35,986 bases of DNA, taken from a virus. The notes under the pieces were generated by a model. It searched no databases and was not told the DNA's origin. It saw only the letters and a program-made list of their open reading frames with translations. Positions within the stretch are counted from its first letter, which is position 1, and the number at the start of each line of letters is the position of its first letter. The stretch lies in the IMG/VR virus record IMGVR_UViG_3300043436_003356, positions 1-35,986 of that record; one strand, written 5' to 3'. Of this stretch, positions 29,690 to 34,130 are shown one piece after another. The translations under genes and the position numbers were made by a program.

Positions 29690-29951
29690 ATATATAGGGT
29701 GGGTTTTGTGAAATAGGGTTGGGCTCTATAAAATACAAAACAAACGTTTATTGCATTATTCTCAGTTTTATAAACTTTCTACGAGGAGCGTATTAACTTT
29801 TCTTCAATGAAAATAGCAAAACACTGAGAATTCTTCAATAAATTATATATTTGTTGGAGTGTAAAATAGTTAACGTGTTCACCTATACACTATAAAAGGG
29901 TCAAATAGACAAACAAACAAATCAACCAACTAACAAAATATATATAGCATT
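29690..29951 (+). ncRNA. Noncoding stretch with a closed multi-stem element
   Basis: No gene is seen. ATTCTCAG (29,758-29,765) pairs perfectly with CTGAGAAT (29,824-29,831). Inside it lie GTTT/AAAC, TACG-AGGAG-CGTA (29,780-29,792) and TTTTC-TTCAAT-GAAAA (29,798-29,813), making a closed multi-branched shape. A TATATTTG box (29,846-29,853) matches the -7 consensus and may start the transcript of the 29,952 gene. AGTGTA/TACACT close another small stem about 29,858-29,892. Confidence 0.5.
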
Positions 29952-30140
29952 ATGAAACAATTAACCTATTCAGAGATAGAATTATTGCAACATACATTAA
30001 AGATGTATATGAATAGTAATAATGATCAACGTGACTATCTTAAATCATTACAGAATAAACTTATTGTAATGAGATCTCAATTAGAACGTACTAAGTATTA
30101 TAAAGATCTTACACCTCAAGAAGTAATGAATACTATTTAG
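29952..30140 (+). CDS. Unknown small helical protein
   Basis: This 62-residue protein is helical and charged (YSEIELLQHTLKMYMNSNND, LKSLQNKLIVMRSQLERTKY), probably a coiled coil. It ends in TAG. The leader is A/T-rich without Shine-Dalgarno. It lies between two structured noncoding stretches, so it may be transcribed with them. Function unknown. Confidence 0.65.
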   Translation: MKQLTYSEIELLQHTLKMYMNSNNDQRDYLKSLQNKLIVMRSQLERTKYYKDLTPQEVMNTI

Positions 30141-30149
30141 AATAATAAT

Positions 30150-30239
30150 GGGCTCTTCAACAGGTATGCTGTTGTCCTATGAAATAATTAGGTTAACGAG
30201 TAACAGTAAAGATGAAACAGTACTGCATTGAGCCCTTTT
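30150..30239 (+). ncRNA. Self-closed multi-hairpin RNA ending in a T run
   Basis: GGGCTC (30,150-30,155) pairs with GAGCCC (30,230-30,235), followed by TTTT. Inside are CAACAG-GTATG-CTGTTG (30,158-30,174), CCTA/TAGG (30,176-30,192), a short TTA/TAA stem (30,193-30,203) and CAGTA/TACTG (30,204-30,225). The result is a cloverleaf-like RNA about 90 bases long, but it is not a tRNA because no T-arm or anticodon pattern is present. Confidence 0.6.
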
Positions 30240-30249
30240 AATATATTAT

Positions 30250-30357
30250 AATAGTCTTGCTAGTCTTAATCAGTTAATCTGAGAGAGATGAAACCTTATC
30301 AAGTATATGTTCCTGAAGTATAGTAGGGATTAGAGATATACAATCTGCAAGACTATT
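30250..30357 (+). ncRNA. RNA element closed by an 11-base perfect stem
   Basis: AATAGTCTTGC (30,250-30,260) pairs perfectly with GCAAGACTATT (30,347-30,357). Flanking AT tracts extend the pairing in part. Inside, CAG/CTG (about 30,271-30,281) and GTATAT/ATATAC (30,303-30,308 with 30,336-30,341) pair. No reading frame is present. Confidence 0.55.
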
Positions 30358-30367
30358 TATAATATAA

Positions 30368-30444
30368 TGTGTGAGTGTATACATTTGCTCGTGTATACAG
30401 CAATAGAGAGTAGAGAAATCAAATAAAGCTTCTCACACATTTTT
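30368..30444 (+). ncRNA. RNA element closed by TGTGTGAG/CTCACACA, with T5 end
   Basis: TGTGTGAG (30,368-30,375) pairs with CTCACACA (30,432-30,439), and T5 follows. Inside, TGTATACA-TTTGCTCG-TGTATACA (30,376-30,399) forms an 8-base hairpin. The end looks like a terminator; the gene at 30,467 begins 22 bases later. Confidence 0.6.
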
Positions 30445-30466
30445 AACTAACTAAATAATAAATATT

Positions 30467-31249: not shown

Positions 31250-31317
31250 AGAGTGTGCACTAAATTTAGCTATGGTTAAATTAATTTTTTTGGGGAAGCG
31301 ATGTGCACACTCTTTTA
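31250..31317 (+). ncRNA. Closed RNA element with T run just before the tRNA-like gene
   Basis: AGAGTGTGCAC (31,250-31,260) pairs perfectly over 11 bases with GTGCACACTCT (31,303-31,313), followed by TTTT. Inside, AATTTAGC-TATG-GTTAAATT (31,263-31,282) makes an 8-base hairpin with one G-U pair. It works as a terminator and may also shield the 5' flank of the tRNA at 31,321. Confidence 0.65.
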
Positions 31318-33615: not shown

Positions 33616-33993
33616 GGGGATGACATGGAATTGATTTAATAAGCATGGGTTACAATTCAGCCAGAGAGATAACTGTAAACTAAGGTGAATTTAATAAATG
33701 GCAAAAACACAAACAGTGTAGTATCTCAAGGAGACAACGCACAAATCGTAGCTAACATGACTGTAGTACACAACATTTTAAATGGTGGTACTGAAGTTAA
33801 ATCAAATGACATTATTGAATTTGAATTAGCAGCCTAAATTAAACAAGATTTCTCTGTTAGATTAAACAGAGTGGTGGATTCTCAACTATTACAGTTGACC
33901 CTTCTAACGTAAAGAGTTTAAAGAAACGTAAAGCTGTATAAAATTGTAACTATTTGAGTATTAAAGACTTGGGTTCGAGTCCCAACATCTCCA
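33616..33993 (+). ncRNA. ssrA: Phage-encoded tmRNA with a 45-codon tag frame
   Basis: tmRNA rescues stalled ribosomes and adds a degradation tag. The 5' end GGGGATG pairs with CATCTCC (33,986-33,992), with the G3-U pair that alanyl-tRNA synthetase recognises; the discriminator is A. The T-arm is TTGGG-TTCGAGT-CCCAA. P2 forms from TTTAATA (33,635-33,641) and TATTAAA (33,959-33,965). PK1 is TTACA/TGTAA (33,650-33,654 with 33,674-33,678), with loop TTCAGCC pairing GGTGAA (33,684-33,689). Ten bases later GGC (33,700) is a good resume codon, since Bacteroidota tags usually begin with Gly. Its frame runs 45 codons to TAA (33,835-33,837) and ends IIEFELAA, a ClpXP-type LAA end. Stems CTCTGTT/AACAGAG (33,852-33,871) and CAACT/AGTTG (33,883-33,897) follow. 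CCA is not encoded. An alternative frame at GCA (33,701) would give only AKTQTV. Confidence 0.85.
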
Positions 33994-34130
33994 CAGCAGT
34001 TACTTGACGCAAATAGCACAGTAACAGACATTGGGTAGTTTGCATACCACGAATGTTAAGTCCTTTCCACGCAGAGAAGGAGTTGAGTACTTATGGGAAG
34101 AAGTGTATACCAAGTTCCAATCTCAACACT
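33994..34130 (+). ncRNA. Structured stretch downstream of the tmRNA
   Basis: Stems are GTTACT/AGTAAC (33,999-34,004 with 34,020-34,025), ACATT/AATGT enclosing GGTA/TACC (34,028-34,056) and CCTT/AAGG (about 34,063-34,081). No reading frame is present. It lies between the tmRNA 3' end and the terminator, so it is probably a trailer that is processed away. Confidence 0.5.

Follow-up and report, generated by a model that had tools for sequence, protein, structure and literature searches.

The tRNA cluster of phage T4 is an RNA-gene array that includes the small stable RNAs C and D, whose function is unknown. Arrays of tRNA genes occur in other phages, such as Leptolyngbya phage Lbo-JY46, where folded RNAs lie head to tail with short spacers, beside small genes and near terL. 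The phage-linked large structured RNAs GOLLD and ROOL are noncoding RNAs described as several hundred nucleotides long and as forming multimers (PMC12286853). Y RNAs, which are associated with Ro/TROVE, are small RNAs closed by a terminal helix, and a TROVE gene is found amongst the early genes of crAss001 (PMC8375218).

Herein we analysed a 36-kb virus record, IMGVR_UViG_3300043436_003356 from IMG/VR (positions 1 to 35,986; "the window" denotes this whole stretch of 35,986 nucleotides), in which closed, hairpin-rich elements lie between small genes. These elements recall T4 RNAs C and D in kind, as putative small phage RNAs in an array, and differ from them in comprising several unrelated families that are swapped between phages, mostly without intervening tRNAs. 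They share their layout with phage tRNA arrays such as that of Lbo-JY46, yet they are not tRNAs and differ amongst themselves. Like GOLLD and ROOL they are structured, noncoding and phage-linked, but at 75–110 nt they match no Rfam family, Rfam being a resource that covers described families. Finally, they have in common with Y RNAs the closing terminal helix; however, a TROVE domain was found in none of 19 related records, 13 of them longer than 100 kb, in a search whose control was positive, and an identity as Y RNAs with a TROVE partner was rejected on this basis. Related phages retain, rearrange and exchange the elements as whole units, which suggests that the elements are phage RNAs yet to be characterised and not the usual kind of transcription terminator.

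The phage and its early gene block

The structural genes of the window occupy its left part on the minus strand, and its terL and portal genes match phrog_6681 and phrog_6547, respectively. Amongst named phages the nearest terL is that of Leptolyngbya phage Lbo-JY46 (40% identity), followed by those of Cellulophaga phages phi17:2 and phi4:1 (33%) and of human-gut crAss-like phages (26–31%). The phage is a distant relative of the crAss-like group, and its relatives point to a host amongst the Bacteroidota. In its nearest named relative by terL (PP438436.1, L228), 18 tRNA genes form tight arrays adjoining terL at positions 118680–123220.

From approximately 29 kb onward the window carries small genes on the plus strand, a block that, judging from gene order, looks like the early genes. 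Expression of the crAss001 early genes takes place within 10 minutes, and a similar block in phi14:2 is transcribed by the virion RNA polymerase that is injected (PMC8375218). One small early gene, an ORF of 62 amino acids on the plus strand (29952–30140) with protein homologues in L022, L011 and other loci, separates the first element, E1, from an array of three, E2, E3 and E4. Further downstream, a long noncoding stretch contains a phage-encoded tmRNA (RF00023, 63.9 bits; 33616–33996, plus strand), a gene that also scores above the family cut-off in 11 of 20 related records.

Closed elements in the window

The initial annotation had described four stretches, each closed by a perfect stem of 6–11 bases, two of them ending in T runs, which share a design but not a sequence. 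All four are present where it placed them, on the plus strand, and fold as it described. E1 (29758–29831) stands where the early block starts; this hairpin element contains the motif AACTTTYTACGAGG and is closed by a 9-bp stem (ATTCTCAGT/ACTGAGAAT). E2 (30150–30239) has a 6-bp closing stem, GGGCTC/GAGCCC, followed by TTTT, and encloses a conserved core at approximately 30164–30230. E3 (30250–30357) is multi-branched, with two inner hairpins inside an 11-bp closing stem (AATAGTCTTGC/GCAAGACTATT), and E4 (30366–30445), which has a strong inner hairpin and a terminal T run, is closed by AATGTGTGAG/CTCACACATT, a stem that reaches 10 bp when the start of the element is set at 30366. The T-run ends thus belong to E2 and E4. 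E2, E3 and E4 follow one another in the same orientation, separated by AT-rich spacers approximately 8–10 nt long. A fifth closed element, E5 (31250–31313, plus strand), has an 11-bp closing stem, lies 7 nt before a tRNA-Leu gene and is probably of the same kind; relatives of it were sought amongst the loci of related phages and none was found, which makes this single sequence the weakest part of the set.

Folding z-scores calculated from single sequences were only moderate (−2.5 for E1, −1.95 for E2, −3.2 for E3 and −1.9 for E4). Folding energy by itself is not convincing; it is the abundance of long closing stems that lies beyond chance. We counted perfect stems whose arms lie 35–170 nt apart, with dinucleotide shuffles as the control, and found eight stems of 9 bp or more in noncoding DNA of the window's early region, as opposed to 2.4 ± 1.6 in shuffled sequence, with none of 200 shuffles reaching eight. 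For stems of at least 10 bp the count was five versus 0.7, and at 7–8 bp the window taken by itself showed no clear surplus. Across 80 relatives, 167 stems of at least 9 bp were counted versus 64 ± 6.6 in the shuffled controls. Automatic clustering of stems returned mostly coding sequence and served for leads only.

Neither strict nor lax searches of Rfam 15 gave a family that came close to its gathering threshold at the elements, the remaining hits being weak chance matches; the only Rfam matches in the window are the tRNA-Leu and the tmRNA, both away from the elements, and neither ARAGORN nor Rfam detected a tRNA or tmRNA at the elements themselves. Named phages, near and distant, contained no match to any element, and a degenerate E2 pattern scanned across bacterial genomes gave six chance matches in surroundings unlike those of E2. 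These negative results for Rfam, the phage collection and the E2-scanned bacterial genomes hold at the sensitivity used. Our search of the open-licence literature yielded no description of such elements.

E1 is associated with the start of the early block

At least 11 relatives have E1 in one and the same place. The core motif of E1, AACTTTYTACGAGG, was found in 31 loci, with a single occurrence per locus, and in other phages it stands without the hairpin. The covariation of E1 did not rise above its shuffle control. Because its place is fixed, its motif also occurs hairpin-less and inverted, and the control matches its covariation, we rejected E1 as an equal member of the set. We take it instead to belong to the beginning of the early block, as a leader or a promoter-associated element, and not to the exchangeable RNAs.

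Two further features of this site were observed. The motif (region 29785–29798 in the window; also L023, L026, L122, L168 and L200) marks the early-block start in many related phages, and some of these, L023 and L026 amongst them, carry it in the opposite orientation to the early genes, which looks as though a short segment could flip. In addition, the outer stem of E1, ATTCTCAG/CTGAGAAT, encloses a very different interior at the E1 position of two reversed loci (L031, 15006–15094; L052, 14396–14481), as if the inside had been replaced.

E2, E3 and E4 recur in other phages with their closing stems intact

Approximately 230 loci were gathered by protein scans and DNA patterns, and all of the phages found to carry the elements are metagenomic. 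The initial annotation had named conservation of the closing stems in relatives as a test of its proposal, and the stems are indeed kept, that of E2 being rebuilt with other sequence and that of E3 showing a compensatory change. E2 recurs in three other phages (L014, L011 and L013) with its core nearly unchanged, even in L013, whose terL is just 25% identical. The closing stem is different, and perfect, in each of the four phages: GGGCTC/GAGCCC, GGCTCTT/AAGAGCC, AAACTTGCTCAG/CTGAGCAAGTTT and ACAATTG/CAATTGT. The combined probability of these rebuilt stems is approximately 2e-7, as estimated by Monte Carlo with shuffled flanks. E3 recurs once, as a 91% identical copy at another position in L067, where it stands before the early leader; in this comparison of two sequences, the stem substitutions turn one G-C pair into C-G, with compensation, and produce one wobble change, and the remaining changes are unpaired.

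E4 is present in five other phages (L015/L020, L042/L017, L022, L007/L018 and L016) at 95–100% identity, with differing neighbours and with similarity that stops at the closing stem. In those that have terL, the third codon positions of this gene are 65–75% identical to those of the window; a value of 30.4% for the window against L067 came from a frame slip and was left out. The near-identity of E4 could reflect recent transfer rather than constraint, and its variation is too small to judge compensatory changes. Compensatory changes that keep pairs, the mark of a conserved structured RNA, were found in E2 and E3 of the window and in two families of the relatives, X2 and F1, described below.

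A shared slot holds several unrelated families

The same slot in relatives holds further elements, of which X2, X3, F1 and F2 were each found in several phages and X1, G1 and G2 in one phage each; none of the seven is related in sequence to the elements of the window. Amongst nine X2 sequences 100% of pairs are kept, three of them doubly changed, with very unequal hairpin lengths, and the covariation score was reached by one of 500 shuffles. The closing stem of F1 contains three doubly changed pairs amongst five sequences, a result matched by 0 of 500 shuffles. F2 keeps its junction strands, GATGTAGNACATATA and GAATAACTA, around a variable inner hairpin. In X3, approximately 44 nt towards the 5′ end and 20 nt towards the 3′ end are kept, with a variable middle between them; this middle ranges from approximately 45 to 180 nt of unrelated sequence (L001 7170–7285, L006, L019, L022, L039, L054 and L057).

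The order of the elements also varies, from E2-E3-E4 in the window to X1-E4-X2-X3 in L020, E4-X3 in L022, E4-F2 in L007 and E4-F1 in L042, and to arrangements that include genes, namely G1-X2-gene-F2 in L060 and E3-leader-genes-G2-F2 in L067. Covariance models of X2 and F2 recovered a single copy in each genome and no noteworthy weaker relatives. They had no match in the window, and a single family for all of the elements was rejected. The proposal of one family of small phage RNAs held in part: the elements are conserved and structured, but they form several unrelated families of similar design, with E1 standing apart.

Alternative explanations

The strongest alternative is that the elements are ornate terminators, 3′-end stabilisers or processing signals, in which the helix and U tract end or protect the upstream mRNA and the interior is filler or a fold for stability. 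A role in termination is possible: E2 and E4 end in T runs, E2, with its end GAGCCCTTTT, takes the place of a plain terminator present in L001 and L007, and a few T residues follow most 3′ arms. Nevertheless, we regard this explanation as unlikely, albeit deserving of real weight, given that two to four elements can follow one another with no intervening gene, that plain short terminators adjoin them, and that E3 in L067 precedes the early leader. The conservation of the E2 core while its stem is rebuilt is, moreover, the opposite of what a terminator needs. An identity as intrinsic terminators, short hairpins directly followed by a U tract, was set aside, as a U tract is present only in E2 and E4, the arms lie approximately 60–90 nt apart, and the interior is conserved and structured. 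Comparison supports the reading of the elements as conserved, strand-specific structured phage elements and as more than terminators.

Control of the following gene by cis-acting leaders, whether of a riboswitch-like or a protein-binding type, is improbable. The three-way-junction form of F2 and X2, with its conserved junction strands, would fit such leaders, and F2 is followed by the same type of gene in four of five phages; this partial exception aside, an identity as riboswitch or cis leader was rejected because the next gene differs in every phage, in all five for E4 and in all four for E2. Tandem elements, furthermore, have a single next gene in common, and no Rfam leader or riboswitch matched.

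We give still less credence to small mobile or recombining DNA palindromes of the MITE or REP type, for which RNA folding would be a by-product. The elements are indeed stem-bounded units at changing places, many of which begin with AAT and end with ATT, but they are single-copy in each genome, and all matches in the loci that were oriented fall on the strand of the early genes, which led us to reject an identity as selfish palindromic DNA; their cores and junctions are conserved, and their inner hairpins contain compensated pairs.

That the elements encode very short peptides is highly unlikely, although F1 may overlap a short frame, conserved in part and about 21 codons long or longer. ATG-started frames occur in E3 (11–12 codons), E4 (19 codons) and the E2 core (ATG-AAA-TAA). 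Against them stand a 1-nt deletion in L020 that disrupts the frame of E4, the stops or indels found in each frame of E2, X2 and F2, in-frame changes in E3 that alter residues while pairs are kept, and the lack of any conserved reading frame in E2, E3, E4, X2 and F2. The two-codon frame of E2 lies within the fully conserved core (30182–30190 in the window, and its homologues) and recalls the bar minigenes of phage lambda.

Discussion

On balance, comparison of the sequences leads us to think that E2, E3 and E4, and perhaps E5, are independent small structured RNA units that are exchanged horizontally and act in trans, whatever their function. Each would be an autonomous folding unit shut by its own terminal helix, in a layout like that of a tRNA array. 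By analogy with mapped crAss-like phages, an early transcript starting near E1 would cover the elements. The closing helix would then define the unit, which may be cut out or protected at that point, such that discrete RNAs accumulate, and the freed units would act in trans. Phages would gain, lose and exchange the elements as cassettes bordered by the helix, whatever protein gene adjoins them. Because this exchange between phages occurs at a site of small accessory early genes, a role in host takeover or counter-defence would fit, and E2, E3 and E4 may have such a role, exerted through a host protein, RNA or signal to which they bind.

A more specific version of this proposal is speculative and, taken as a whole, rather doubtful. 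The slot where the early genes begin may be an accessory RNA island, filled from a shared pool of approximately ten unrelated multi-branched cassette RNAs, each of which, as a decoy or signal-binding aptamer, would put a different host factor or defence out of action. If this is true, the island would correspond, at the level of RNA, to an accessory island of anti-defence genes. Searches for phage accessory genes usually look for proteins, and a slot of exchangeable structured RNAs, absent from Rfam and unseen by gene callers, would represent a class of phage effectors that standard annotation misses. E2, E3, E4, F1, F2, X2 and X3 are concrete sequences that would make RNA function directly testable once a phage of this group is cultured.
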